Below, piece by piece: positions 7,145 to 24,555 of a stretch of 42,705 nucleotides of DNA. The position numbers and the translations under genes were made by a program. The DNA is from Bdellovibrio sp. (GTDB taxonomy: Bacteria; Bdellovibrionota; Bdellovibrionia; Bdellovibrionales; Bdellovibrionaceae), in contig JACMQO010000134.1 of the NCBI GenBank assembly GCA_014376935.1, forward strand, positions 1-42,705, in the 5' to 3' direction. A model generated the notes under the pieces. It saw only the letters and a program-made list of their open reading frames with translations, ran no database searches and had not been told where the DNA came from. The first letter of the stretch is position 1; the number at the start of each line of letters is the position of its first letter.

Positions 7145-7555
7145 ATGCTAAAAGAAAACAAAATTATTATTCCGTGGACAGAAATTGAATGGACGGCGAC
7201 GCGCTCTTCGGGGGCGGGTGGTCAGCATGTGAATCGGACTAATTCGGCCGTGATTTTAAGATTCTCGATTTCTAAATCTTTGATTTTAAACGATACGCAG
7301 AAGCAAAAACTACTGGTGCGTTTGCAGTCTCGATTAGCTCAGGGTGACGATATTTTAATTCGCATCGAAGATCAGCGGGATCAGAAAAGTAATAAAGACC
7401 GGGCTTATAAGTTACTCTGTGAGCTTGTCTCAAGATCATTGATTGACCCTAAAAAGCGAATCGCTACAAAGCCGAAGAAAAGTGCCGTTCGTAAAAGATT
7501 AAACGAAAAGAAACGCCATTCAGAAGTTAAAAAAAGTCGTTCGGAAAAGTTCTAA
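7145..7555 (+). CDS. arfB: Peptidyl-tRNA hydrolase ArfB (ribosome rescue)
   Basis: This 136-residue relative of class I release factors lacks the stop-codon recognition domain. The GGQ motif that triggers peptidyl-tRNA hydrolysis is at residues 25-27 within SSGAGGQHVNRT. The C-terminus from about residue 105 is a basic Lys/Arg-rich tail, which in ArfB/YaeJ enters the empty mRNA channel of stalled ribosomes. Length and tail match ArfB rather than RF1/RF2, which are about 360 residues. It acts in the cytosol on non-stop complexes and follows the His-rich membrane protein gene by 5 bases. Confidence 0.95.
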   Translation: MLKENKIIIPWTEIEWTATRSSGAGGQHVNRTNSAVILRFSISKSLILNDTQKQKLLVRLQSRLAQGDDILIRIEDQRDQKSNKDRAYKLLCELVSRSLIDPKKRIATKPKKSAVRKRLNEKKRHSEVKKSRSEKF

Positions 7556-7745
7556 TTAACCTTCGTCTAGCTTGATTACAAGCCAGCTATGACTTTTTAA
7601 ACTAACCTGCACGTTGACACTTAAATTAACCAGTTTTTAATCAAAATCGATTTCAAATATAGACATTAGACTTTTGCTAGTAGTTAATTGCTACATGTAG
7701 TTGTAAGCTATAGTTTTAAATATTAACCCGTTATTTGGAGCCCGA

Positions 7746-9074
7746 GTGAAGAAGAAAATATTAGTCGTTGAAGACGATCAATTTTTCCGTGAAACAGTTT
7801 GTGAACTATTGCAAAAAAAATTCGACGTTAAAGAAGCTGCTAGCGGTAAAGCGGCTATTGAAATTTTAAGTATTGCTGATTTTGATTTAGTCTTATCTGA
7901 CATTCAAATGCCTGGCATGACAGGAATTGAACTTTTGGAATGGTCACAAAAAAACAAACCGATTCCATTTGTTATCATGACCGGATTTTCGCTATTGTTA
8001 GAAACTAAAACTGCGTTTGATCTGGGCGCAAAAGGATTTGTATCGAAACCTTTTAAAAGTTCAGAACTGCTTGCGACGATTGATTCGATTATCGGAGACA
8101 AAGAAAAAATCGAAGTGGCTGAAGTTCAGCCAAAGCAAGATTACTGCAAAGTTTCAATTGATGAATTCGTAGCTAGACCGAAAATTGATTTTGATGTCTT
8201 TATTAAATTGTCAGAAACAAAGGTTATTCGCTTGGCGCATAAAGGTGAACAACTTCCGGCCGATCGTGTACAGCATTACAAAGAAAAAGGTGTTAAATTT
8301 TTACATATTTTAAAAGAGGATTTTGGAAAGTTAGTCGATTTTAATATGAGCCTGACTCGGATTATCAAAGATCGTGATGACATTTCGATCGAGAAAAAAA
8401 TGAATTTCATTAAATACACCGGCGAAGTGCTGATGGAAAAGGTCTTTGTGATGGGACTTGATAAACAAAGTTTCACCGACGGGCAAAACTTTTTAAATAT
8501 GTCATTAGGGGTAATTAGTGATTCAAAAGAACATCTTGATTTGTTAGATGCCTTAAACGCTAATTCAGATCAGGTTTATGCACATTCGTTAGGGGTTGCG
8601 CTTTATAGCGTTATGGTCGCAAAAAAAATGGGGTTCGAAGCGAATTCTGTTCTATTTAAAATTATGATGGCGGGCTTGTATCATGATATTGGAAAGAAAG
8701 AAATTGATCGTGCTTTATTGGAAAAGCCTCGTCAGTTATTAAGTCAGCAAGAAAGAAAAATTTTTGAAACCCACGTCATCCGCAGCCAAGAAATTCTTAT
8801 GCAGGTGCACGGTGTTTCAGAAGAAGTGGCGCAAATTGTTTCGGAACATCATGAAGATATGACGGGGAATGGTTACCCCTTGAATAAAGCCGTTAAATTT
8901 CAACATCCGCTTTCACGTATTATTCAGGCCGTAAATATTTTTATGGAACTAGTTGTTAAGCCAGGAAATGAACATGTGACTGGCCCTGCGGCGGTGGCGC
9001 AAATTGAAAAAGTATATGACAACCGCGTGGATAAAAAAGTGCTTGCGGCATTGAAGTCAATTTTTTCAGCGTAG
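7746..9074 (+). CDS. Response regulator with HD-GYP-type phosphodiesterase domain
   Basis: This is a 442-residue cytosolic regulator. Residues 1-120 are a receiver domain with the acidic pair EDD at 9-11, phospho-acceptor Asp within LSDIQMPG near residue 53, and KPF near 103. Residues 145-200 (DVFIKLSETKVIRLAHKG) resemble the DUF3391-like segment that precedes many HD-GYP domains. Residues 280-420 form the HD-GYP domain with HDIGK at 313-317 and HHEDMTGNGYP near 367. The family consensus is HHExxDGxGYP, so one Asp is replaced by Thr. Such proteins normally hydrolyse cyclic di-GMP. The GTG start is supported by GGAG 5 bases upstream. No partner histidine kinase is adjacent. Confidence 0.92.
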   Translation: MKKKILVVEDDQFFRETVCELLQKKFDVKEAASGKAAIEILSIADFDLVLSDIQMPGMTGIELLEWSQKNKPIPFVIMTGFSLLLETKTAFDLGAKGFVSKPFKSSELLATIDSIIGDKEKIEVAEVQPKQDYCKVSIDEFVARPKIDFDVFIKLSETKVIRLAHKGEQLPADRVQHYKEKGVKFLHILKEDFGKLVDFNMSLTRIIKDRDDISIEKKMNFIKYTGEVLMEKVFVMGLDKQSFTDGQNFLNMSLGVISDSKEHLDLLDALNANSDQVYAHSLGVALYSVMVAKKMGFEANSVLFKIMMAGLYHDIGKKEIDRALLEKPRQLLSQQERKIFETHVIRSQEILMQVHGVSEEVAQIVSEHHEDMTGNGYPLNKAVKFQHPLSRIIQAVNIFMELVVKPGNEHVTGPAAVAQIEKVYDNRVDKKVLAALKSIFSA

Positions 9075-10403
9075 TTACTTAAGTAAGCGAATTAGTTTTA
9101 ATTTAACAGGCGTATACGGCGGCAACAAGAATTGGGTTAACGATTTGAAAAATTTAAGCCGAATGATGGCGCGCTGGTGACTTAATTCCACAAAGCCATG
9201 CCATCCATGATAGCGACCCATACCGCTAGCGCCGACTCCACCGAAAGGTAAATACGGATTAGCTAAATGCATAATGACCGTATTGATGGCGACTCCACCT
9301 GAAGTATGCGCTTTTAAAATGGACTCAATGAATGTTTTATTTTTTGAAAAAATATACATCGCTAGCGGTTTTTCGTAATTTTTTATGATCGCATCAATTT
9401 CAACGTGTGTTTCGTAAGTCAGAACGGGTAAAACAGGACCAAAGATTTCATCTTTCATGGTGGCATCGCTTAAGTCGCTGACTGGTTTTACTTCTAATGC
9501 TTTCTGGTTAAAGAAACCAAGTGGCTTTTGCACCATCGTATTTAAGCGGGCTTCGTGATTTTGGTTAATAATTTTACCTTCTATTTCAAGTTCATGTAAA
9601 TTTTCAAGTCGGGTCATTTCTTTCTCAAATTGAACCTGGACAGATTTATGAACGATCACGTAATCAGGTGCCACACAAGTTTGCCCGCGATTTAAAAACT
9701 TACCCCAAAATATTTTTTCGCAGGCTAAGTGGATGTCTGCCGTTTCATCAACGATTGTTGGCGATTTTCCGCCCAGTTCAAGTGTCATCGGAATCAATTT
9801 ATCCGCGCAAGCTTTGGCGATGATGCGACCAACGGCTGTCGAGCCCGTAAAAAAAACGTGATCAAAGTGGTAAGTTAGAAGATTTTCTGTGGCCGACTTA
9901 TCCCCTAAAACCACAACAGCTTCGCCAGAAGTAAAGCAGTCTTGAACTAACTTTGAAATCACGTTTGAAGTGTGCGGAGTCAGCTCTGAGGGTTTAAGAA
10001 CGGCCGTATTTCCGGCAGCCAAGGCCGTTATGAAAGGAACGATGGCTAAATAAAATGGGTAATTCCAAGGAGAGATGATAAGAATCACACCCTTATTTTC
10101 ATAACGTATCGAACTGGAATGACCTAGAAGCGTTATTGGAGTCGGAACTTTTTGATCCTTCATCCAGCGCGATAAATGTTTTATAAAAAAATCAATTTCT
10201 GAATAAACCGGGGTTATTTCTGTAAGCCTTGTTTCAAATTCAGGCTTCGAAAAATCAGCTTTTAGCGCATTGATAATTTGTTCTTCGTTTTTGGCGATCC
10301 AACTTTTAACCTTTTTGAGTCTTACGATTCGTTGCCAAGCTTTATCGTGACGAAACTCAAGCGCTTTAGATTTAAGAATTAGAAATTGGGTTTCAGTCAG
10401 CAT
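9075..10403 (-). CDS. NAD(P)-dependent aldehyde dehydrogenase
   Basis: This is a 442-residue class 3-like aldehyde dehydrogenase that oxidises an aldehyde to its acid. The general base is Glu209 in LELGGKSP and the catalytic nucleophile Cys243 in RGQTCVAPDYV. The cofactor-site phrases SPWNYPF and FTGSTAVG are present. The C-terminus is hydrophobic and basic (LKFFKSLTQFLLPPYTPVKLKL), as in membrane-associated fatty aldehyde dehydrogenases, so a lipid-derived aldehyde substrate is possible. Its stop codon abuts the stop of the convergent HD-GYP gene with no gap. It starts 13 bases after ttcA and is likely the last gene of that minus-strand run. Confidence 0.93.
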   Translation of the reverse strand: MLTETQFLILKSKALEFRHDKAWQRIVRLKKVKSWIAKNEEQIINALKADFSKPEFETRLTEITPVYSEIDFFIKHLSRWMKDQKVPTPITLLGHSSSIRYENKGVILIISPWNYPFYLAIVPFITALAAGNTAVLKPSELTPHTSNVISKLVQDCFTSGEAVVVLGDKSATENLLTYHFDHVFFTGSTAVGRIIAKACADKLIPMTLELGGKSPTIVDETADIHLACEKIFWGKFLNRGQTCVAPDYVIVHKSVQVQFEKEMTRLENLHELEIEGKIINQNHEARLNTMVQKPLGFFNQKALEVKPVSDLSDATMKDEIFGPVLPVLTYETHVEIDAIIKNYEKPLAMYIFSKNKTFIESILKAHTSGGVAINTVIMHLANPYLPFGGVGASGMGRYHGWHGFVELSHQRAIIRLKFFKSLTQFLLPPYTPVKLKLIRLLK

Positions 10404-10416
10404 AAATACCTTTAAG

Positions 10417-11205
10417 TTACATATCTTTAAAATTATAAAGTTTTTGATCCATCAGATGACTTGGTTTTACATTTTCTAAAGCTGTTTGAAAAGAGGCCGC
10501 CATATTGGGAATTTCTTTTTCAAGATCCGAAATTAATTTTTTCATACGTTGGCGTTTCATTCCTTCTTGCGAACCACAAAGGTTGCACGGAATAATTGGA
10601 AAGTTCCAAATTTCTGCCAGTTCAATCAGATCTTTTTCGGCCACGTAAACTAACGGACGTAATACTATATTTCGTTCATCGTCAGATTTTAATTTCGCGG
10701 GCATCGTCGAAAGCTGACCGGTGTAAAATAAATTGAGCAAAGTCGTTTCGATCACATCGTCACGATGGTGACCTAAAGCCATTTTTGTAAATTGATTAGC
10801 GTGGGCGTAATCATACAAAATAGCGCGGCGCAATTTTGAACACAACGAACAAAATGTTCCATTTTTAACCTTGTCGGTGACGATGGAATACGTGTCTTTT
10901 TCAAGAATATTTAATTTAAGCTGTTCTGCTTCAAGCCAAGTTTGAAATTTTTGAGCTGAAAATCCGGGTTGTTTTTGATCTAAGATCGTCGCTTCGATGG
11001 TAAAATTCATCGGCGCGCGCTTACGGATTTCTTCAAGTAAAATAGCTAATATGGAAGAGTCTTTTCCGCCCGAGACGCAGATCATGACTTTATCGCCTTC
11101 GGCGATCATATTGAAATCGGCTAGGGCTTTGGTAATTTGCTTTCTGATCTGCAAAGCTAGGGGATGGTTTCTTTGAACTTCTTGGGTGCGAGATAATTCT
11201 ATCAT
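10417..11205 (-). CDS. ttcA: tRNA 2-thiocytidine(32) synthetase TtcA
   Basis: This 262-residue PP-loop ATPase thiolates C32 of certain tRNAs. The ATP-binding SGGKDS is at residues 45-50. Two CxxC pairs, Cys119/Cys122 (FCSLCSKLRR) and Cys207/Cys210 (PCNLCGS), match those that hold the iron-sulfur cluster in TtcA, and GHHRDDVIETTLLNLFY is the family signature. Length is a little shorter than the E. coli protein (311). The gene is 3 bases after the MscS-like gene and 13 before the aldehyde dehydrogenase, so the three probably share one transcript, without an obvious functional link. Confidence 0.95.
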   Translation of the reverse strand: MIELSRTQEVQRNHPLALQIRKQITKALADFNMIAEGDKVMICVSGGKDSSILAILLEEIRKRAPMNFTIEATILDQKQPGFSAQKFQTWLEAEQLKLNILEKDTYSIVTDKVKNGTFCSLCSKLRRAILYDYAHANQFTKMALGHHRDDVIETTLLNLFYTGQLSTMPAKLKSDDERNIVLRPLVYVAEKDLIELAEIWNFPIIPCNLCGSQEGMKRQRMKKLISDLEKEIPNMAASFQTALENVKPSHLMDQKLYNFKDM

Positions 11206-11208
11206 ATT

Positions 11209-12243
11209 TTAGACTGTCGTTGTTTGTATGTTAATGGTTGGTTTAGAGAATTGAATTTTATTTTGTTCAAGTAAGGCTAAAGCGCGCGCCGCCACTTTGT
11301 CGCCTACGGTAAATTGTTTACCGTAGTTGTCGATGTAATAAATCAGTTTAATCGTGACACCGTAGTCGTTCATTTCCTGAATGTAGGCGAACGGCGCAGG
11401 AATTCCGCGCACTTCTGAAATTTGGCTTGCCGCTTGTTCTAGTATATCTTTGGCTTTTTCAAATTCAGATAAAAATGGGAATTTATAAATTTGACTTCGT
11501 AAAATGGGCTGGTGTTCCGGAGAATAATTACTGACTTGGCATTGGGCGACTAGTTTGTTGGGCATCGTGATCATCTCGTCGGAAAGACCGACAAGTAAAG
11601 TCGAGCGCCAAGAAAGTTCTTTCACCTGGCCGACAATTTTGACTAAACCATTTTGAATTTCGATCCAGTCACCGATTTCAAATGTTTTATCAATTTGTAA
11701 AGAAATACCCGCGAATAAATTGCCTAAAGTGTCTTGCAGAGCAAGACCCAGAATAATTGAAAAGGCTGCTGACGTTGCAAGAAGTGGTGTTAACTGAACG
11801 CCCAAGATCACATTGACGGCCCAAAAGCCAATCAAGATAGAAAGAACGAGCGAGAAAATATTAACAAGTAAAAGTGGAACACCCGCGCGCATCGATCCCA
11901 AGAACATATACTGTAGAACAAGCAAACGACTGCACTTGACTAAAAACACTGAACCCGCAAAGAAGCAGATTAAAGCTAAGTACGGAGTCACACGGCGAAC
12001 TAAATCAACGTCTGTAATTTGCGACGCTAGAAAAAATAAGCCGTATGAAAAGCTTAAAAGTAAAAAATAATTTCCTAAATTTCTAAAGTGACCTTTTAAA
12101 TTTCTATGGCGCTCTTCAGAAACGGTACGAAGAAAAAAGCGGTAAAAAAGAAATGCAATCAGCCCTAACATCGCGAGTAGAATAAAGGTCTCTAGATCGA
12201 TCAATTGATAAAGCCTACTTGTCTGGATGATACGGTCGTTCAA
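11209..12243 (-). CDS. MscS-family mechanosensitive channel
   Basis: This inner-membrane protein of about 344 residues has four to five transmembrane segments followed by the MscS pore helix and beta domain. The pore-lining segment ATSAAFSIILGLALQDTLGNLFAG and the following IDKTFEIGDWIEI are diagnostic. The C-terminal half is the cytosolic cage. Such channels release solutes on hypo-osmotic shock. The start is uncertain. A TTG at 12243 has AAGGA seven bases upstream and is preferred here; the longest frame begins at a TTG at 12282 without such a site. It heads the mscS-ttcA-aldehyde dehydrogenase run. Confidence 0.9.
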   Translation of the reverse strand: MNDRIIQTSRLYQLIDLETFILLAMLGLIAFLFYRFFLRTVSEERHRNLKGHFRNLGNYFLLLSFSYGLFFLASQITDVDLVRRVTPYLALICFFAGSVFLVKCSRLLVLQYMFLGSMRAGVPLLLVNIFSLVLSILIGFWAVNVILGVQLTPLLATSAAFSIILGLALQDTLGNLFAGISLQIDKTFEIGDWIEIQNGLVKIVGQVKELSWRSTLLVGLSDEMITMPNKLVAQCQVSNYSPEHQPILRSQIYKFPFLSEFEKAKDILEQAASQISEVRGIPAPFAYIQEMNDYGVTIKLIYYIDNYGKQFTVGDKVAARALALLEQNKIQFSKPTINIQTTTV

Positions 12244-12390: not shown

Positions 12391-13008
12391 ATGGCAAAGA
12401 TATTCGCATATTTTTTCATTCTTATTGAGCTTACATTCTTAAGCTTGCCGTCTTTTGCGAAAGATCCGGTTAAGCTAATTCCAAAAACTCCTTTTTGTTC
12501 GAATATGAAGTTGATTGACCGTGCAACGCACGTGGGTCTTATGCAGGTCACAGAAGCGGATTATATTGTCGTGTCTAAACAACGTCGTCTGATGTATTTA
12601 TTAAATAAAGGTCAAATTGTTCGGGTTTACTCGGTGGCCTTTGGCAGCGGCGTTTTAAAAGGGCCAAAAATTCAGTCCGGGGACGGGCGCACACCCGAAG
12701 GACTTTATTTCATCGACGGCAAAAACTCAAAATCAAAGTACCACTTGGGTTTACATCTTTCATATCCCTCACAAAATGATACCGATTTTGCAGTTAAAAA
12801 TTCAATTGCGGACCCGGGCAGTGACATCATGATTCATGGTTTTCCGACTGATTTTATCGATAATTTAAATCCTGAAGTTGTCCGCCAAGTTCATCCTAAA
12901 GCGGATTGGACGCAAGGTTGTATTGCCGTCACCGATACCGAGATCGAAGAGGTCTTTGCGATGGTGAAAGCCAAAGTTCCCGTCGAGATTTGTCCGTTAA
13001 ATAAATAA
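12391..13008 (+). CDS. Exported L,D-transpeptidase (YkuD domain)
   Basis: This 205-residue protein begins with a signal peptide (residues 1-23, ending SFA). The YkuD domain starts at ADYIVVSKQRRLMYLL. His149 in IMIHGFP and Cys177 in DWTQGCIAV form the catalytic motif of L,D-transpeptidases, which make or remodel 3-3 peptidoglycan cross-links or attach proteins and amino acids to the wall. It is expected in the periplasm. In predatory bdellovibrios such enzymes act on prey wall, but that link is inference. It is a single gene, divergent from the MscS-like gene. Confidence 0.93.
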   Translation: MAKIFAYFFILIELTFLSLPSFAKDPVKLIPKTPFCSNMKLIDRATHVGLMQVTEADYIVVSKQRRLMYLLNKGQIVRVYSVAFGSGVLKGPKIQSGDGRTPEGLYFIDGKNSKSKYHLGLHLSYPSQNDTDFAVKNSIADPGSDIMIHGFPTDFIDNLNPEVVRQVHPKADWTQGCIAVTDTEIEEVFAMVKAKVPVEICPLNK

Positions 13009-13101: not shown

Positions 13102-13881
13102 ATGAGTACGACGACTTTAAAAAAGCCCGTAGGCGTTTATTTACTAGCTGTATTATTTCTTTTAGCACCGCTGGGTAATATATTTATTAGTTTTGCCGGC
13201 TCTGGTTTAGATAATTGGTATCAACCTTCTATATTTTTCTCGCTGGCTCAAAGTATTCCGTGGTTTGATTGGTTGTGGTTGGCGTTACTTTTTGTAACAG
13301 GATTACTTCTTTTTAGACCTCACAAGTTATCTTGGTCGATCGCTATTGTTACCTTAATAGTTGTTCTGGTGATGAATGCGTTTCGCCTTTATAGTGCCGA
13401 CTCCAATTCAATTGATCCTTTATTTTTAAAAGTTTTTTCAATCCTAGCTATCATATGCACGCTCAGCGTTTTAGTGATCGCCTTTTACTTTCGCTTTCCT
13501 TACTTGGATCGTCGTAGTCAGTGGGTTTCATCAAAACCCAATACCGACCGCCGTGCAGCCACACGATTTACCGAAATTGATCGTCGTGATGACCCAACTA
13601 TGGATGCGCGCTTCTTCAATATCCGCACACCAGTCCTTTGTGGCGGAGCCAAGGCCATGACAGAGTCCTTATCTGAAACGGGATGCCGCGTTTCTTTAGA
13701 TCAACCATGCACATTCAAAAAAGACGACATGGTGACCTTAAAATTTAGCGATATTTCAGATGTTCAAATCACGGCCCAAGTGGTGGATCAAATGGAATTT
13801 GGCGCTCGGTTAGAGTTTATCAAGCCTGATCTTCAATTTAAGCAAGACTTAAGTCATTGGTTAAAGAACAGAAAGTCTTAA
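13102..13881 (+). CDS. Membrane-anchored PilZ domain protein
   Basis: This 259-residue protein has four hydrophobic helices (about residues 12-30, 50-70, 75-95 and 110-130) and then a cytosolic PilZ domain. The cyclic di-GMP-binding RRAATRF (the RxxxR motif) is near residues 150-156, and the second motif reads SLSETGCRVSL near 190, close to the usual D/NxSxxG. The segment between has repeated DRR triplets (LDRRSQ, TDRRAA, IDRRDD). It probably senses cyclic di-GMP at the inner membrane; the effector role is unknown. The start has a purine-rich GAGGGAGA just upstream. It may respond to the HD-GYP protein at 7746, though the genes are not linked. Confidence 0.88.
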   Translation: MSTTTLKKPVGVYLLAVLFLLAPLGNIFISFAGSGLDNWYQPSIFFSLAQSIPWFDWLWLALLFVTGLLLFRPHKLSWSIAIVTLIVVLVMNAFRLYSADSNSIDPLFLKVFSILAIICTLSVLVIAFYFRFPYLDRRSQWVSSKPNTDRRAATRFTEIDRRDDPTMDARFFNIRTPVLCGGAKAMTESLSETGCRVSLDQPCTFKKDDMVTLKFSDISDVQITAQVVDQMEFGARLEFIKPDLQFKQDLSHWLKNRKS

Positions 13882-13981: not shown

Positions 13982-16492
13982 ATGAAGTTGTTAAAATTTT
14001 TAAGCTGGTCTGCTGCGCACACGGCGTGGATAACAATGAGCTTTTCCCCATTGGCCATTGGCGCGGAAGCGCAAAGAATGTCGAAACAAAATCTACAAAA
14101 ATACGTTCAAGAATCTGGCTTAAATAAGAAGATCACTTACGGTGAATTCTGGGAGAAAACAAAAGTTTACTATCCAGGTTTTGTCTATGGCGAAATGGAA
14201 ATTTTCTTTAAGCAAAATAAAAATTTAGTCATGCCTGAAATTTCTATTTCTTCAGCGACGGCGACGGATGGAACAGAAATTCCAACAGCCAGCTATTCGG
14301 TGAACGGCAAACCTTACACGCTACAAATTTTTGGTGAAAAAAACAAATACGCTAAATTTAACAATGTAACCGTTCTAGAATCTGATGTTGATCGCCCGAA
14401 TGATCTTTTTAAACGAATGATGGCCAACGATTATCGTTTAAGAAATGAAGTGGATCTACTTAAGAAAAAACAAAATCAAGGTTCAGCAGCTGATGCAGCG
14501 AAGGCGGCCGCTTACAAAAAAGATTTTGCTCGGTTCAAAGGTTTTCCGCGCATCACGCCGGCTTTATGGAAGTCTTTAACTCCTGAAAAAAGAGCGAACT
14601 ATTTAGTTAAAATGCGCTTGATGTGGTTAGATTCAAGAAAAGTAGTTGAAAATAAAACTTACAAGACGGCAGTGACCGAAGTTGATCCGATCAAACAATT
14701 TTATAAAGTGATTTTCGGAGAAAATGCGCAAGCCCAAGACGCAGCGTTAGACGAGCTAGCTCCGCTTCCGGGTGCAGCAGCAACGGCTTCGAAAGCATCA
14801 AAAGCGGCCAAAGCGACACCTTCAGCTAAAGTTCAAGTGCAAGGCGCAACCGTTACGGTGAACGGTAAGCCAGTGACAATTCCAACGGACGCAAAAAAAT
14901 GTTTAGTTGCGGGTTACATTGGAGCTTACGGTGTTGTGGATAATAGTTCAGGAAAAGACCGTAAAGGTTGTTCTTTGGATTTAGCTTTAGCCACATATGA
15001 TAATTACAAAAGCTTATCTTACATCAAAGAAGCGAATGACGAATGTAAAAATAATTTTGAAAAATCATGGGGCGCTTGTAACCCAATGGTATACGGCTAT
15101 CCAGGTGGTAAAGCGAAGTGCGTCGATAAGTTAGACCCATCGTTTCAAGACGCCACGACGCAAGTAGGTCCTTGTGATGTTTCAAGCCCACTTTCTAAAT
15201 CAACGGTAGGTATTGGTTTTACAAAAGACTACTCGAATATTATGCCGCCAGAAACACGCATTGCTTTGATTGAAAAAGATCAAAAGGCTGACGACTATAA
15301 ATTAACCAAAGACTTTTTAGCCGGTGTTTTAACGAAGAAGGACCCTTTACTTTTAGCGATGATGCAAAAGGGTGAATGGAATTCAGATCTTGATAACGAA
15401 TTAGTGCGTATTCAAAATCACTTTGAGGCCGGCATCGAAGAAGCCATTGGCGTCTGTGAAGCTTCGTTTAAAAACGGAGAATCACAATTAGATAAAAAAC
15501 AAAAATCAGCGTGTGATCAATTGCATCGCCGTTGGTTATTCACCGAGCGCGTGATCGCAGAACTTCGTTCTAAGGCGTGTATCGATGGTTCAACGTATGT
15601 TGGTGCTTACGGTAAAGATGAATTATCAAGCCAAGCTGTTGATAAAACAAAATTAAATAAAAAAACGATTTCAGCAGATGGATTTTCTTCAGATGGCGCT
15701 GGTCTTTGTCAATGTCCAGATGGATCTAAAATCGGTTTCGGTAAGCCGTGCATGGCGGTTGTTGAAATTAAAGAATGTCGTCCCGGCAAACATTCTCAGA
15801 AGAATGAAAAAACGGGAAAAATGGAATGCGTGAATACAACTGTTGTCGATCATTCGTGCCCAACAGGCACGAAATTTATGGCCGGTGAAGAAGATGATTC
15901 TTGCGTTTGTACGAATAGCCCAGAAAAACGCGCTCCGGTTGGTTTAACGGTCACCGATGCGCAGGCATTATGTAAAGAAGAAAGTAATGCTTGGAAATGG
16001 GCTTTAGGAATTGGCGTCGGTATCGCCGCTTTATTATGGTGGAAAAATCGCCATAAAAAAACGGATCCGGTGACACCACCGATTGCGCCGGTCTGTAATA
16101 AAAATCAAACTTTAATAAGTTCAGGATGTGCGTGCGTTGTGAAAACTTGCCCAGGTGGCGGAGTTCCTAATCCAAATACGTGTGCTTGTGATCCGATGAC
16201 GCCTCTGCCAGTTTGCGCTTCTCCACAGATTTTAACGGGTAGTACTTGTGGATGCGCCGATGCCGGAACGTGCACGCCGAAGCCAGGCTACAAGGCAGGA
16301 ATATACAATTACTTAACATGTAATTGCGCTTATGAATCGGAACCTATTACATGTCCGGATGGCACTAAGTTAGCGGCTCCAAAGACATTAGCGGATTGCC
16401 CGAAACCGGTTGTTCCGACTCCGACTGAGGGTGGTTCAGGTACAAATCCGACAGATAATGGCGGCTACGGTGGAGTTCCAACCGGAAAATAG
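13982..16492 (+). CDS. Large exported Cys-rich protein, tandem paralogue A
   Basis: This 836-residue protein is not recognised. It has a signal peptide (about residues 1-27, ending AIGA) and an N-terminal region (30-240) whose VMPEISISSATATDGTEIP and FGEKNKYAKF match the next gene. A low-complexity Ala/Lys linker follows. A Cys-bearing region has CLVAGY, ACNPMVYGYPGGKAKC and ACDQLHRRWLF, all shared with paralogue B. A CxCPDG segment leads to one membrane helix (WKWALGIGVGIAALLWW, about 675-692) flanked by KNRHKK, and then a tail of about 140 residues with many CxC and Cys-Pro motifs. The ATG at 13982 has AAGGGG six bases upstream; the TTG at 13961 does not. It lies 48 bases before its paralogue, so the two are probably in one operon. 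Confidence 0.8.
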   Translation: MKLLKFLSWSAAHTAWITMSFSPLAIGAEAQRMSKQNLQKYVQESGLNKKITYGEFWEKTKVYYPGFVYGEMEIFFKQNKNLVMPEISISSATATDGTEIPTASYSVNGKPYTLQIFGEKNKYAKFNNVTVLESDVDRPNDLFKRMMANDYRLRNEVDLLKKKQNQGSAADAAKAAAYKKDFARFKGFPRITPALWKSLTPEKRANYLVKMRLMWLDSRKVVENKTYKTAVTEVDPIKQFYKVIFGENAQAQDAALDELAPLPGAAATASKASKAAKATPSAKVQVQGATVTVNGKPVTIPTDAKKCLVAGYIGAYGVVDNSSGKDRKGCSLDLALATYDNYKSLSYIKEANDECKNNFEKSWGACNPMVYGYPGGKAKCVDKLDPSFQDATTQVGPCDVSSPLSKSTVGIGFTKDYSNIMPPETRIALIEKDQKADDYKLTKDFLAGVLTKKDPLLLAMMQKGEWNSDLDNELVRIQNHFEAGIEEAIGVCEASFKNGESQLDKKQKSACDQLHRRWLFTERVIAELRSKACIDGSTYVGAYGKDELSSQAVDKTKLNKKTISADGFSSDGAGLCQCPDGSKIGFGKPCMAVVEIKECRPGKHSQKNEKTGKMECVNTTVVDHSCPTGTKFMAGEEDDSCVCTNSPEKRAPVGLTVTDAQALCKEESNAWKWALGIGVGIAALLWWKNRHKKTDPVTPPIAPVCNKNQTLISSGCACVVKTCPGGGVPNPNTCACDPMTPLPVCASPQILTGSTCGCADAGTCTPKPGYKAGIYNYLTCNCAYESEPITCPDGTKLAAPKTLADCPKPVVPTPTEGGSGTNPTDNGGYGGVPTGK

Positions 16493-16540
16493 TTAGGGCT
16501 AATTGATTTGAACGTAAAGACTTTTGCGAAAAGGATTGTT

Positions 16541-18775
16541 ATGAAATTTTTTAAATTTAAAACTTCGGTGACTTGGTTAGCCACATGGTTCTCGGTCGCA
16601 ACTATGGTGATGTCTCCGGTGGCTCAAGGTCAAGAAGCTAAAAATATTTCAAAACAACAGATGCAAAGCGTATTTGACCAATTAGGTTTAAATAAGCAAA
16701 CAACCGTTGGTGAGTTTTTTCAAAAAAATAAAGCTTTGTTTCCTGAGCGCGTTCGTAAAGAAATCGAACCGCTTTTAGCAGGCTACAAAAATGTGATGAT
16801 GCCAGAGTTTCGAGTCACCGCAGCCACGGGGCCAGATGGTCGTGAAATTCCAAACGTCACCATGTCTTACAATGGCCAAATGATTAACATGCAATGGTTC
16901 GGCGAAAAAGAACGCTTCGTTAAATTTCAAAATACCAATTTATCTGAAGTGGATATCATTAATTTCACAGATATGTTTTCAAAAGTATTAGCGGGCGACG
17001 AAGTTCTAAGAAAACAGAATGAAGTTGGTCAACTTGAGTTAAAAAAGCCCACGACAAACTTTAGTGGTCTACCAATCATTAATGCTGTTCTTTGGAAGAA
17101 AATGACGACGCAAGAACGTGTCAGTTACATGGTGCAGATGCGTCACTTGTGGTTAGATGCGAAAAATGTTTTGTTTGAAAAAAACAAAATGAGCAAAAAC
17201 AAAAGAACGGCTTCTTATGAAGTTTTAGAAAAAATTTGGGCTTTCTTAGCCGGCGTTGAAGCCGAAGCACAAGATGCAATACCTGCATCAAAAGCTAAAA
17301 AAGGTAAAAAAGCTGTCGCTAAAGATACGCCGACCGCTTTCTTGAAGAAGACAGATTCGACGACAAACTTAAATGCTTCAAGTTGTTTGGTGGCTGGCTA
17401 TTCAGCTCAGTACAATAATGGCGTTTGTGATCATAATAAATTATTAGATTCTTATAGTGGTAGCCCGTTCGTACAAAGCATGAAAGAAAAATGTAATGCG
17501 ACAACGCCAGGTACAATTGCGTGTAATCCGTTAGTTTATGGAACTCCGGATGGATCGCCAATTTGTATCACTCCATCACGAAAAGCAGCCGACTTTCAAG
17601 TGGCGACTCATTTTGGTGGGCCTTGTGATAGTAAAAGCTTATTACAAACCGATCCAAATGCCGTTCCTTTCTTAAAAGATGAAAACAAACATGCAGGTCG
17701 TTATGACGATGCCAACTTATCGATGACCGAAGACCAACGTCGTGAAACTTTCAAAAAGCAGCAGGCGGGTAATAATTTTAACGAAACAAAAAAATTCGTC
17801 GAAGGAATTTTAAAAGTCAACGACCCATCGCTTAAAGATATCTTCGAAAAAGGTGTTTTAACTGACGGAGTACTGGCTCAATTAAAAGATATTCAAGAGC
17901 AATTCAATAAAGAAATTAAGGAAAGCACAACGGCTTGTAAAGCGGCTGCGAACGACAAAAAAGCAAAGCACGAAAAAAACTTTTGGGGCGCTTGTGATCA
18001 ATTGCAACGTCGATTTTTATTTATTTCTGAAATGCTAGCTACGAAGTGTGATCCAAAATCTGCCATCAATCCATCCACATTAAAGTGTACCTGTTCGGCT
18101 GATCAGTCAGAAGTCGCGCCAGGAGCAAGTTGTAATGGGCCTGCGACTCCACCGGCGGTTACACCTCCGGGAAAAACAGAACCTCCAGTCAAAGAAAAAC
18201 CTCCGGTTAAATCAGATTGCGGTCCAGGTATGACTTCGAAAACGATTACTGGTGAAGTCAGTGGCGCTCAATCGACGGAATGTGTTCCTGATAAAGCGCC
18301 ACCGAAAGTTAAAGAAAAAGAAGACTGCGGCATTTTATGTACTTTATGGAAAGGGGCTAAATTTGTTCTTCCGATCGCTTTAGGGCTTGGGGCTGCCTAT
18401 TTAGTTTATCGTTTGTTAATTCCTAAAAAAGTGAATTTAAATCCGGCGGGCGATGTTTGTCCGAACGGCGTTGTGGCGCCGTGTACGGGAACGTGTTCGG
18501 GGAATTTGGCTTGGATCAATGGAACGTGTCAGTGTCCAGCGTGCCCAGTTGGTCAAACTTTAACGAATGCTTCATCGTGTACATGTTCGACAGGTACGAC
18601 GACAACAACATACACATGTTGGGATGGAACAACGAAAGTGACTGATTTATCTTTATGTCCAACTCAGACTTATACATGTTGGAATGGAACGAAAGTAACT
18701 AATCCGTTGAACTGCCCAGAGCAAACTACAACGACGACGACGACCGATTCAACAAAAACGAGTACGGGTCGGTAG
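16541..18775 (+). CDS. Large exported Cys-rich protein, tandem paralogue B
   Basis: This 744-residue paralogue of the preceding gene is also of unknown function. It keeps the same order: signal peptide (ending PVAQGQ), N-terminal region with MMPEFRVTAATGPDGREIP and WFGEKERFVKF, Lys/Ala linker, CLVAGY, ACNPLVYGTPDGSPIC, ACDQLQRRFLF, a Pro/Lys-rich linker, one membrane helix (LPIALGLGAAYLVYRLLI) followed by PKK, and a Cys/Thr-rich tail. The tail has two tandem units, TYTCWDGTTKVTDLSLCP and TYTCWNGTKVTNPLNCP, and ends in a Thr run. The start at 16541 has AAAGGA five bases upstream; the TTG at 16508 is the alternative. A strong terminator follows 33 bases after the stop. Confidence 0.8.
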   Translation: MKFFKFKTSVTWLATWFSVATMVMSPVAQGQEAKNISKQQMQSVFDQLGLNKQTTVGEFFQKNKALFPERVRKEIEPLLAGYKNVMMPEFRVTAATGPDGREIPNVTMSYNGQMINMQWFGEKERFVKFQNTNLSEVDIINFTDMFSKVLAGDEVLRKQNEVGQLELKKPTTNFSGLPIINAVLWKKMTTQERVSYMVQMRHLWLDAKNVLFEKNKMSKNKRTASYEVLEKIWAFLAGVEAEAQDAIPASKAKKGKKAVAKDTPTAFLKKTDSTTNLNASSCLVAGYSAQYNNGVCDHNKLLDSYSGSPFVQSMKEKCNATTPGTIACNPLVYGTPDGSPICITPSRKAADFQVATHFGGPCDSKSLLQTDPNAVPFLKDENKHAGRYDDANLSMTEDQRRETFKKQQAGNNFNETKKFVEGILKVNDPSLKDIFEKGVLTDGVLAQLKDIQEQFNKEIKESTTACKAAANDKKAKHEKNFWGACDQLQRRFLFISEMLATKCDPKSAINPSTLKCTCSADQSEVAPGASCNGPATPPAVTPPGKTEPPVKEKPPVKSDCGPGMTSKTITGEVSGAQSTECVPDKAPPKVKEKEDCGILCTLWKGAKFVLPIALGLGAAYLVYRLLIPKKVNLNPAGDVCPNGVVAPCTGTCSGNLAWINGTCQCPACPVGQTLTNASSCTCSTGTTTTTYTCWDGTTKVTDLSLCPTQTYTCWNGTKVTNPLNCPEQTTTTTTTDSTKTSTGR

Positions 18776-18801: not shown

Positions 18802-18838
18802 AAAAAAGGGGAAGATTTTGATCTTCCCCTTTTTTTTA
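18802..18838. terminator. Bidirectional rho-independent terminator
   Basis: A 9-bp stem GGGGAAGAT/ATCTTCCCC with a TTTG loop lies at 18808-18829. A-run and T-run on either side extend the stem and give a U-tract in both directions. It sits between the Cys-rich pair (plus) and the small exported protein (minus), so it can end both transcripts. Confidence 0.92.
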
Positions 18839-18858: not shown

Positions 18859-19134
18859 CTACTTCTTTTTCTTAGGCTCTTTCGCAGCACCCTTTGATTC
18901 AATTTCAGTGGCCGTCATCGAATAATACACCGTCACTTTGCCGCCAACAGTAACTTCACCCGTCGTTTTAACTCCAGCTGATTTGGCAATTTCAAATTTT
19001 TCGCCTTTTTTGTCGACGATAATTTTTGAATCTGACACTTCAACAACCGTTCCAGTCACTTGGTAATCTTTAGCAGAAGCTGTTCCGGCAGCCGTTAATA
19101 CAGATAAAGAGGCGATGGCTAATAACATTTTCAT
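18859..19134 (-). CDS. Small exported protein, OB/DUF5666-like
   Basis: This 91-residue protein has a clean signal peptide (MKMLLAIASLSVLTAAGTASA, cleaved before KDYQ). The mature part is about 70 residues of alternating beta-strand pattern (YQVTGTVVEVSDSKIIVDKKGEKFEIA, then GEVTVGGKVTVYY) and a basic tail KEPKKKK. The pattern resembles small DUF5666/OB-like periplasmic proteins, but the family is not certain. AAGGAG lies seven bases before the start. It is monocistronic and shares the terminator at 18802-18838 with the convergent genes. Confidence 0.78.
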   Translation of the reverse strand: MKMLLAIASLSVLTAAGTASAKDYQVTGTVVEVSDSKIIVDKKGEKFEIAKSAGVKTTGEVTVGGKVTVYYSMTATEIESKGAAKEPKKKK

Positions 19135-19234: not shown

Positions 19235-19864
19235 GTGATTACAAATCAAGGCACTCATCAAAATACAAACGTGAACGGTGTGATCGTTCCTGAAAAAACG
19301 CCGGTCAAAACTCCTGAAGTACCGCGCCAAACGCCACCAAATCCGCGCGTACGATCTGATCTTTTTAGACGCTTAGAAATCATTGATGGTGATGCTGATT
19401 TAGGAACCGGATTTCGAAGTGGTTCGCAAAAAAGATCAGGCTTAAAATTAGCGTTATGGACTTGGTTATCTGCTAGCATTGATGCATTAGTTTTAGTTTC
19501 GATGAGTTGCTTATTTGCGATCGCTTTTTCATTTTTGATGCGGACATCACCCGGCTTATTATTCGTGACGGTCGTAAAAAGCCAACATCCACTGATTAAT
19601 TTAGGTTTATTATTTCTTTTAAGCACCTGGAGTTACTTGATATTTATGCGTGCTTTTATCGGCGCTTCGATTGGCGAATGGACATGTGATTTAAGAGTCG
19701 GGCAACCGTTACAGCGTTTTAAAAGTAATTATATATTAAAAGTCATGCTTCGAACCACGATAGTGATGCTGACGGGTGTATTTTTACTTCCGTTGATGTC
19801 TTTGCTGTTAGCTCGCGATATTGCAGGCGATTTATCAGGTGTTCGTATCTATTCTTTGCAATAA
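19235..19864 (+). CDS. RDD family membrane protein
   Basis: This 209-residue protein has a Pro-rich cytosolic N-terminus of about 70 residues and then three to four hydrophobic segments. The first helix carries ASIDALVLVS and the central loop GASIGEWTCDLRVGQP, which match the RDD layout (an Asp in helix 1 and the G-x-x-x-x-x-L-R-V loop). A third segment starts at LRTTIVMLTGVFLL. The family includes putative ion antiporters, and no specific role can be given. The start is a GTG without a clear ribosome binding site. Its last 30 bases overlap the 3' end of the convergent methyltransferase gene. Confidence 0.72.
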   Translation: MITNQGTHQNTNVNGVIVPEKTPVKTPEVPRQTPPNPRVRSDLFRRLEIIDGDADLGTGFRSGSQKRSGLKLALWTWLSASIDALVLVSMSCLFAIAFSFLMRTSPGLLFVTVVKSQHPLINLGLLFLLSTWSYLIFMRAFIGASIGEWTCDLRVGQPLQRFKSNYILKVMLRTTIVMLTGVFLLPLMSLLLARDIAGDLSGVRIYSLQ

Positions 19865-21575: not shown

Positions 21576-21603
21576 CAGGACCTCGGTTTGTTTGTCTGTC
21601 TGT

Positions 21604-24555
21604 ATGAAAAAAATATTAATCGTTATCGTATCGTTTATGGCGTTAGCCGTCACCTTATCTTCTGTTAAAACGTGGGCTGAAAACCAAGCCACACCGGCCG
21701 GAGGCTTAGACGCAAAAGCCCTAGAAAATATCGTCAATGACCCGAATAAGCTTTTAGCCAATTCAAAGCAAATTACGTTTGTGGGCCCAAGATCAGGCGA
21801 AGGGTATTTTAGCCAAGATGGTCAAAAAATGATCTTTCAGTCTGAACGTGAACCCGGAAATCCTTTCTATCAGATGTTCATTTTAGATTTAAAAACCGGC
21901 CGCACGAATCGTGTTTCAACGGGCCAAGGAAAAACCACCTGCGGATGGATTCACCCCAATTTGAAAAAAGTGATGTGGTCATCGACCCATCTAGATAAAA
22001 AAACGGCCGAGAAAGTCAAAGCTGAATATGAAGAGCGCGCAAAACCCGTGAAAGGCCGCTACTCTTGGAGTTTTGATCAAGAATTTGATATTTTTGAATC
22101 GGATTTAAACGGTAAACATATTAAAAGGCTTACAAAAGAAAAAGGTTACGACGCCGAAGGTTCGTATTCTCCGGATGGAAAATACATTGCTTTTGCATCG
22201 AACCGTTCAGGCTACACCGACAAATTATCGGACGAAGATCAAAAGATTTTTGACCGCGATCCATCGTTTGCGATGGAAATTTACATCATGAAGGCAGACG
22301 GCACGAACGTTAAACGCTTAACAAATTCTGCGGGTTACGATGGCGGCCCTTTCTTTAGCGCTGACGGTAAAAAAATCACTTGGCGCCGTTTTAATGCCGA
22401 CGGCTCAAAAGCTGAAATCTACACAATGAATGTGGATGGGTCAGACCAGAAGCAAATCACGCATTTAGGTTCAATGTCTTGGGCTCCATTTTATCATCCG
22501 TCGGGTGATTATATTATTTTTGCGTCTTCGGTTTTAGGGTATTCAAATTTTGAATTATTTATCGTTGATAGCGAAGGCAAACAAAAACCGGCCCGCGTGA
22601 CATTTGCCGACGGCTTTGATGGTTTAGCCAGTTTTTCTCCGGATGGTCACAAGATGACGTGGTCGCACCGAAATGAAAAAGGGGATAGTCAAATTTATAT
22701 CGCCGACTGGAACGATCACGAAGCGCGCCGCTTACTGAATTTACCGGCGGTTGATTCTGGGTTTGATTTCAAATTATCAGAAAACATTTTACAAGACGAT
22801 GCAAAAAATATCGTTAGTTATTTAGCCTCTGAAAATATGCAAGGACGTAACACGGGTTCGCCTGAAGAAAAAATATATACAAAAAAGATTTCTGATTTAT
22901 TTAAATCGTGGGGCTTAAAACCTGCTTTAGGAAAAGATTTTATCCAAACTTTCGAATTTGTATCCAACGTCAGTGCCGCTGAAAAAAATTCGATGGAACT
23001 TAAAGGGCGCTTGCAGAAAAAACTAGTTCGTTCACAAGACTACCAAGTTCTATCTTATTCTAAAATAGGCCCAGTGACCGAAATGCCGATCGTGTTTGCG
23101 GGTTACGGAATTAAAGCGGCCGCCACGGATAAATTACCTGCATTTGATTCGTACAAAGATTTAGACGTTGCCGGTAAATGGGTGATGGTTCTAGAAGATA
23201 TGCCGCACTTAGCAAATAAAGAAGTTCAGCATCAGCTAGCAACGTACTCAAGACCGCAGCATAAAATTACGGTGGCGAAAAATTTAAAAGCGGCCGGTGT
23301 TATTTTTATCTCTGACGTTGGTCTTAAAGAAGTTAGATTTGAAGGGCGTCTGTCAGACACAACATTACCGGTGATCAAAATCTCTGAAAAATTAGCGACC
23401 GAGATGTTTAAAAAAACGGATCAAGCGAAACAATTCCTTTCGTACGGTAAATTGAAAGAAAGTTTTGAAACTTCAAAAGCAACCCAAGGATTTGCTTTAA
23501 CTTCAATGTACTTAGGCGGCGAAATTGATTTAAAATATGAAAAATCAATTGGCCACAACGTGATTGCCAGATTAGATCCGGCCGGCGTAAATAAAAAAAC
23601 AAAAGGCTTAATCATCGGAGCCCACGGCGATCACTTAGGTCGCGGTGAAAGCACGGGTTCATCACTGGCTAAAGCTGAAGAAAAAGGAAAAATTCATTTC
23701 GGCGCAGACGATAATGCATCTGGGGTCGCAGGTGTTCTTGAATTAGCCCATTATTTTTCAGCGAAGAAAAATTTAAAAACCTTAAAAAAACCTTTGTATT
23801 TTGCGGTTTGGACGGGCGAAGAAATTGGTATTTTAGGTTCAACAGCTTTCGTTAAGCAGTGGGAATTAGATAATAAATCAAAACTAAATACAAAAATCGA
23901 AGCTAGCTTAAACATGGATATGATCGGCCGACTACGCGATAGTTTACAAGTTTTAGGCGTGGGTTCAGCAAAGCAATGGACCGGACTTAGCGAAGAGGTC
24001 GGATTAATTACCGGACAAAATTTAGTTTTAACATCAGACCCTTACAATCCTACAGATGGAATGACGTTCTATATGGCCGACATGCCGTCGATTTCTTTCT
24101 TTACGGGTTCTCATGCCGAATACCATTCGCCGCGCGATACGGCGGATACGCTGAATTACCCGGGCCTTATTAAAGTGATCGATGTTGTTAAAACGTATAT
24201 TGAAAAATTAGCCACCGTTCAGGTTCAACAGGTTCAGTATGAAAAAGTCGAAGGCAATGCCGGGCAAAAATTAGAAGGCCGTAGCTTTAGAGTCTATTTA
24301 GGAACAATTCCCGATTACAGCCAAGAGGGCGTTAAGGGAGTTCGTATTTCAGGCGTCTCTAAGAATTCGCCGGCCGAAAAAGCAGGATTAAAAGCGGGTG
24401 ATGTGATTATTGAATTTGATGAAACTAAGATCGAGAATTTATACGATTATGTTTATACACTTCAGGCCGTAAAGGCGAACAAAGCGACTAAGATTAAAAT
24501 TAATCGCTCTGAAAAAACTTTAGATCAAGAAATTACTCCGGTCTTAAAGGAGTAA
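21604..24555 (+). CDS. Exported TolB-like propeller / M28 aminopeptidase / PDZ fusion
   Basis: This 983-residue exported protein has a signal peptide (residues 1-25). Residues about 45-390 carry WD40/PD40 TolB-like repeats (YSPDGKYIAFASNRSG, FFSADGKKITWRRF, FSPDGHKMTW). About 400-650 holds a PA-like insert. The M28 zinc peptidase domain follows, with ligands in GAHGDHLG, GADDNASG, TGEEIG, NMDMIG and SHAEYHSPRD. The C-terminus (about 890-975) is a PDZ domain (NSPAEKAGLKAGDVIIEFDETKIENLYDY). It likely trims peptides in the periplasm or outside the cell. The ATG at 21604 is chosen, and no ribosome binding site is clear there. Its last 12 bases overlap the convergent gene. Confidence 0.92.
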   Translation: MKKILIVIVSFMALAVTLSSVKTWAENQATPAGGLDAKALENIVNDPNKLLANSKQITFVGPRSGEGYFSQDGQKMIFQSEREPGNPFYQMFILDLKTGRTNRVSTGQGKTTCGWIHPNLKKVMWSSTHLDKKTAEKVKAEYEERAKPVKGRYSWSFDQEFDIFESDLNGKHIKRLTKEKGYDAEGSYSPDGKYIAFASNRSGYTDKLSDEDQKIFDRDPSFAMEIYIMKADGTNVKRLTNSAGYDGGPFFSADGKKITWRRFNADGSKAEIYTMNVDGSDQKQITHLGSMSWAPFYHPSGDYIIFASSVLGYSNFELFIVDSEGKQKPARVTFADGFDGLASFSPDGHKMTWSHRNEKGDSQIYIADWNDHEARRLLNLPAVDSGFDFKLSENILQDDAKNIVSYLASENMQGRNTGSPEEKIYTKKISDLFKSWGLKPALGKDFIQTFEFVSNVSAAEKNSMELKGRLQKKLVRSQDYQVLSYSKIGPVTEMPIVFAGYGIKAAATDKLPAFDSYKDLDVAGKWVMVLEDMPHLANKEVQHQLATYSRPQHKITVAKNLKAAGVIFISDVGLKEVRFEGRLSDTTLPVIKISEKLATEMFKKTDQAKQFLSYGKLKESFETSKATQGFALTSMYLGGEIDLKYEKSIGHNVIARLDPAGVNKKTKGLIIGAHGDHLGRGESTGSSLAKAEEKGKIHFGADDNASGVAGVLELAHYFSAKKNLKTLKKPLYFAVWTGEEIGILGSTAFVKQWELDNKSKLNTKIEASLNMDMIGRLRDSLQVLGVGSAKQWTGLSEEVGLITGQNLVLTSDPYNPTDGMTFYMADMPSISFFTGSHAEYHSPRDTADTLNYPGLIKVIDVVKTYIEKLATVQVQQVQYEKVEGNAGQKLEGRSFRVYLGTIPDYSQEGVKGVRISGVSKNSPAEKAGLKAGDVIIEFDETKIENLYDYVYTLQAVKANKATKIKINRSEKTLDQEITPVLKE

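Follow-up and report, generated by a model that had tools for sequence, protein, structure and literature searches.

Two adjacent genes, A and B, within a 42,705-nt stretch of Bdellovibrio sp. DNA (contig JACMQO010000134.1, positions 1 to 42,705; hereafter the window) encode large exported, cysteine-rich proteins that a sequence-only reading had been unable to place in any named family, which raises the question of what these proteins are, how widely they occur and what they do.

Architecture of A and B

The two genes are separated by 48 bases and encode proteins built from the same parts in the same order (Table 1), as the sequence-only reading had described. All of the motifs that it quoted are found: CLVAGY occurs in both proteins, ACNPMVYGYPGG and ACNPLVYGTPDG in A and B, respectively, and ACDQLHRRWLF (A) and ACDQLQRRFLF (B) complete the set; a single membrane helix followed by a Cys-rich tail is likewise predicted in both (dG −0.87 for A and −0.70 for B). 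Over A residues 6-539, A and B are 37% identical (E 5e-68), which agrees with the description of a related yet well-diverged pair; moreover, because identity amounts to 40% in the N-terminal region, 34% in the cysteine domain and 30% in the rest, their likeness extends beyond low-complexity parts.

Table 1. Features of the A/B locus, in window positions
Feature	Position	Strand	Details
YkuD L,D-transpeptidase with signal peptide	12391..13008	+	two genes upstream of A, PilZ between; E 1.3e-17
Membrane PilZ-domain protein	13102..13881	+	directly upstream of A, conserved
Gene A	13982..16492	+	836 aa; signal peptide, N-terminal alpha/beta domain, helical module, eight-Cys domain, hydrophobic helix, Cys-rich tail
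A signal peptide	13982..14065	+	about residues 1-28, ...SPLAIGA; from sequence and family SPxAxG motif
A eight-Cys domain	14900..15532	+	CLVAGY, then ACNPMVYGYPGG, then ACDQLHRR; basis includes homology to phylum-wide domain
A hydrophobic helix	15989..16051	+	WKWALGIGVGIAALLWW region
A tail	16052..16489	+	14 Cys; ends in GGVPTGK
Gene B	16541..18775	+	744 aa; paralogue of A, same part order
B signal peptide	16541..16630	+	about residues 1-30, ...SPVAQG; from sequence and family SPxAxG motif
B eight-Cys domain	17384..18013	+	CLVAGY, then ACNPLVYGTPDG, then ACDQLQRR; basis includes homology to phylum-wide domain
B hydrophobic helix	18362..18421	+	FVLPIALGLGAAYLVYRLLI
B tail	18422..18772	+	12 Cys, repeated two-Cys loops; ends in R
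Intrinsic terminator-like hairpin	18802..18835	+	15 pairs, then T's; reads on both strands
RDD-like membrane protein	19235..19864	+	downstream, conserved, often overlapping in relatives; name from sequence reading

Consistent with the claim that the pair belongs to no named family, neither protein has a match above the curated cut-offs in Pfam, NCBIfam or PHROGs, or any match among PDB sequences, and family-library searches found no peptidoglycan-enzyme or known binding signature in them. Across the wider family to which A and B belong (gene X, see below), Pfam gave no recurring match, L,D-transpeptidase domains (YkuD, YkuD_2) included; scattered matches in single members, such as Hirudin and FliJ, do not recur and were treated as chance. 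AlphaFold2 models calculated from 22 sequences reached a mean pLDDT of 60 for B and 65 for A, and a fold search of the PDB with both whole-protein models returned nothing reliable (Foldseek best E 0.4 and 2.8; VIA-align best Z 4.8 and 3.5), the gyrase insert and toluene-tolerance (Ttg2) protein among the matches being at noise level. As the models are of moderate quality and cover the proteins as wholes, the absence of a fold match is no proof of a new fold.

MYXO-CTERM and GlyGly-CTERM sorted proteins are also exported and carry a single hydrophobic helix towards the C-terminus. In these proteins, however, the helix is followed by a short basic end, whereas 121-149 residues follow it in A and B, which show no such sorting signal and have no NCBIfam match. 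The extreme C-termini are nevertheless patterned: GGVR or a close variant terminates the single-copy members of the wider family, whereas most B copies finish with R and A copies with GGVPxxN/K, and this conservation of the final residues suggests that the C-terminus is recognised by something.

A family-wide gene at a conserved locus

A and B are tandem paralogues of a Bdellovibrionaceae gene that we name X. A whole-genome profile search found X in 62 of the 66 genomes searched from the window's family, with 18 of its 20 genera represented. In the window's own genome, A scores 678 bits and B 770 bits against this profile (N-terminal domain plus cysteine domain), of whose alignment both are part; singles from other genera also match. 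Genera other than the window's carry one X copy of about 580-730 aa at the same PilZ-X-RDD locus, as exemplified by a genome with a 3,782,950-nt chromosome that we take to be B. bacteriovorus HD100 (X at 1,964,675-1,966,474). In the window's Pseudobdellovibrio-type genus, A is followed by B in every genome with a completely assembled locus, including one with a 2,657,893-nt chromosome, presumably exovorus JSS, and that of Bdellovibrio sp. qaytius (CP025734.1). The libraries searched hold no annotation of X, and no literature on it was found; the hypothetical gene Bd2033, listed as predatory (PMC2797640), has a locus number near our estimate for X, nothing links the two, and we do not claim that they are the same.

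The genes around X run in the order TtcA-like, MscS, sometimes a YkuD L,D-transpeptidase, PilZ, X, RDD-like, RlmD-like methyltransferase and M28 peptidase, the RDD, TtcA and RlmD names coming partly from sequence reading; A and B occupy the corresponding place, between PilZ and the RDD-like and RlmD-like genes. PilZ lies just upstream of X in most genomes. The YkuD gene is also close to the single X of the genome taken as HD100 and is absent from some X loci, and the RDD-like protein of the window has no Pfam match. This arrangement qualifies the earlier view of A and B as a self-contained two-gene unit with its own terminator: the strong terminator is there, and the unit is self-contained in this genome and only a few others, most genomes having the RDD-like gene a few bases 3' of the last copy or overlapping it. 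The conserved arrangement is a PilZ-X-RDD cluster, of which the two-gene unit is a lineage-specific form, and the sequence-only reading had overlooked both that X is single at the same locus elsewhere in the family and that its middle part is a phylum-wide domain.

A small exported protein of 91 aa, without a Pfam match, is encoded between B and the RDD-like gene (18859-19134, − strand), where few relatives have it; farther downstream, a fusion of M28 peptidase, PD40 repeats and a PDZ domain (21592-24555, + strand) is conserved in its synteny with X. A third B-type copy stands alone, away from the locus, in one genome (L034:8249-10084, − strand; 611 aa, four Cys in its short tail). B contains one in-frame stop in each of two metagenome-assembled genomes (L038:10908-11071 and L035:1130-1140), located after the signal-peptide region in one case and in the helix region in the other, which reflects either assembly error or decay.

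A tree built from the N-terminal domain unites every A and B copy to the exclusion of the singles (100/99), and within this group A and B each fall on one side of a branch (76/94). This grouping places the duplication before the window's genus, in keeping with the earlier proposal that it is old and that both copies were retained. The cysteine-domain tree differs in that the A copies from qaytius and from one relative nest among the B copies, each grouping with its own B (100/100). Identity between A and B of qaytius is 77% in the cysteine domain and 42% elsewhere, and the cysteine domain of these pairs has, judging from this pattern, likely undergone gene conversion within the pair. The loci that show this likeness are L043 (qaytius), 7219-11503, and L044, 730-5016.

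An eight-cysteine domain and its fusions to L,D-transpeptidases

The middle part of X is defined by eight invariant cysteines set around the motifs C-x-VAG-Y, CNPxVYG and AC-x2-L-x2-R; A and B carry all eight in the same sequence, the fourth lying within CNPxx[YF]G. A codon-pattern search for CNPxx[YF]G found more sites than a reversed control, and those sites revealed a second group of exported proteins with eight cysteines of the same kind, one of them encoded in the window's own genome. A profile of this second group (A6), built without any X protein, aligns with the X profile (A2) over the first six cysteines with an hhalign probability of 97% (E 1e-10); it also detects X itself in whole genomes, with E 9.8e-6 in the genome taken as HD100 and E 2e-10 in another Bdellovibrio, and yields matches in 99 of 291 genomes from the phylum. 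The domain has no match in Pfam, NCBIfam or the PDB. It is phylum-wide, and we found no prior description of it.

Members of the second group, such as the exported 471-aa protein from the window's own genome (L089:5601-7016, contig C92; motif CNPxLFG), have the same eight invariant cysteines as X, preceded by a helical LTxxQRxxYI module that by eye resembles that of X. They differ from X in being shorter (about 330-650 aa) and in lacking the X-specific N-terminal alpha/beta domain as well as the hydrophobic helix and tail.

A YkuD-type L,D-transpeptidase domain is present in 6 of 45 non-X eight-Cys proteins examined, a non-random sample drawn from hit lists and partly by length. Five of these score above the Pfam cut-off for YkuD_2 (L185, at 7e-29, L187, L190, L193 and L198) and the sixth, L181, falls just under the cut-off for YkuD. 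Because YkuD_2 is rare, with 0-5 copies per genome in ten genomes, such fusions are far above chance. Among the L,D-transpeptidases of YkuD and YkuD_2 type that bear accessory domains (PF03734, PF13645), several Bdellovibrionota proteins have the eight-Cys domain before YkuD_2; unlike them, A and B contain no YkuD or other enzyme domain, and no enzyme domain could be recognised in most of the eight-Cys proteins examined. A CHAP-like amidase suspected by eye in L180, L191, L194 and L204 was unsupported on testing; these four proteins have in common an unnamed C-terminal domain that has no Pfam match and whose Cys and His positions resemble, by eye, those of an amidase.

Membrane topology and possible function of X

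A and B, which are exported and membrane-anchored, probably work in or on the cell envelope. As its signal peptide indicates, X would be exported by Sec; the N-terminal alpha/beta domain, the short helical module and the eight-cysteine domain would fold in the periplasm, the last of these presumably held by disulfides in view of its eight invariant cysteines, and the single hydrophobic helix would anchor the protein. So placed, X could serve peptidoglycan work as a scaffold or as a partner that targets it, whether on the predator's own wall or where the predator contacts prey. The phylum-wide fusions of the eight-Cys domain to L,D-transpeptidases, together with the L,D-transpeptidase gene near X, make such a peptidoglycan role the likeliest. 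A precedent within the same family is the peptidoglycan LD-carboxypeptidase Bd1075 of B. bacteriovorus, which is directed by an accessory NTF2 domain (PMC8938487) and illustrates how a non-catalytic periplasmic domain can position cell-wall chemistry; the parallel drawn is one of role, and X differs in being non-enzymatic and in its membrane helix and tail. We give even chances to X being an envelope scaffold that is non-catalytic, anchored in the membrane, stabilised by disulfides and linked to peptidoglycan work, and hold the peptidoglycan role, taken by itself, to fall slightly short of that.

The predicted insertion energy (dG) of the helix is below zero in 44 of 53 X members (median −1.0), and the flanking charge is +2.4 after the helix and +0.6 before it; together, these values favour a cytoplasmic tail. 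The number of tail cysteines, which ranges from 0 to 20, suggests instead a tail outside the cytoplasm, since it shows the even pattern expected for disulfides in 56 of 63 X members, each of the 7 odd-count members having one extra Cys in the helix segment. Because the members share ancestry, the cases are effectively fewer, but the counts of 4, 10, 12, 14, 16, 18 and 20 found within one genus require several independent even steps. Even counts would also be compatible with metal-binding pairs.

An outside tail would fit a surface prey-contact protein, with the helix in the outer membrane and the Cys-rich tail displayed as an adhesin, and the abundance of P, T, S and G in the tails and their repeated two-Cys loops agree with such a role. 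On this reading, the tandem copies and their enlarged tails would represent an adaptation to epibiotic predation, the duplicated genus including both qaytius and the genome taken as JSS. Qaytius and JSS are reported to be epibiotic (PMC11656739). Against this, invading Bdellovibrio have singles with short tails, and the duplication is one evolutionary event, so that the epibiotic link has n=1; with a helix of sufficient hydrophobicity to be retained in the inner membrane and a flank charge that favours a cytoplasmic tail, we consider the adhesin, although it is the main rival to the scaffold, rather unlikely. These same two properties place the tail where an inner-membrane signal transducer would need it, with periplasmic domains sensing envelope or redox state and metal-binding Cys pairs, which even numbers would suit, signalling in the cytoplasm, possibly through the PilZ and RDD-like membrane proteins encoded directly upstream and downstream of X across genera. 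Such a transducer is nonetheless improbable, given that many single-copy tails have two Cys about ten residues apart or none, that X has no known signalling domain and that the tails look like low-complexity exported linkers and not like a folded cytoplasmic domain. That the pair is a lineage-specific curiosity with no conserved role would accord with the lack of annotation and literature matches, but it is scarcely credible for a gene that is near-universal in the family, conserved in synteny and retained in both copies in every genome of the window's genus with a completely assembled locus.

A bolder combination, which we regard as doubtful, would make X a hallmark of the predator family, with a single alpha-helix across the outer membrane, a disulfide-rich tail shown to prey and a periplasmic eight-Cys domain docking on the cell wall or on L,D-transpeptidases; if this were true, the move to feeding from outside the prey would have involved the duplication of X and the enlargement of its tails.

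In summary, nearly all sampled members of one predatory bacterial family carry X. Its occurrence as a single gene in invading predators and as a tandem pair in outside-feeding ones is a testable candidate for their difference in lifestyle that rests on one duplication. The eight-Cys domain at the centre of X extends across the phylum, is absent from Pfam and NCBIfam and recurs in fusion with enzymes that cross-link the cell wall, so that its description would give a handle on dozens of unnamed proteins.
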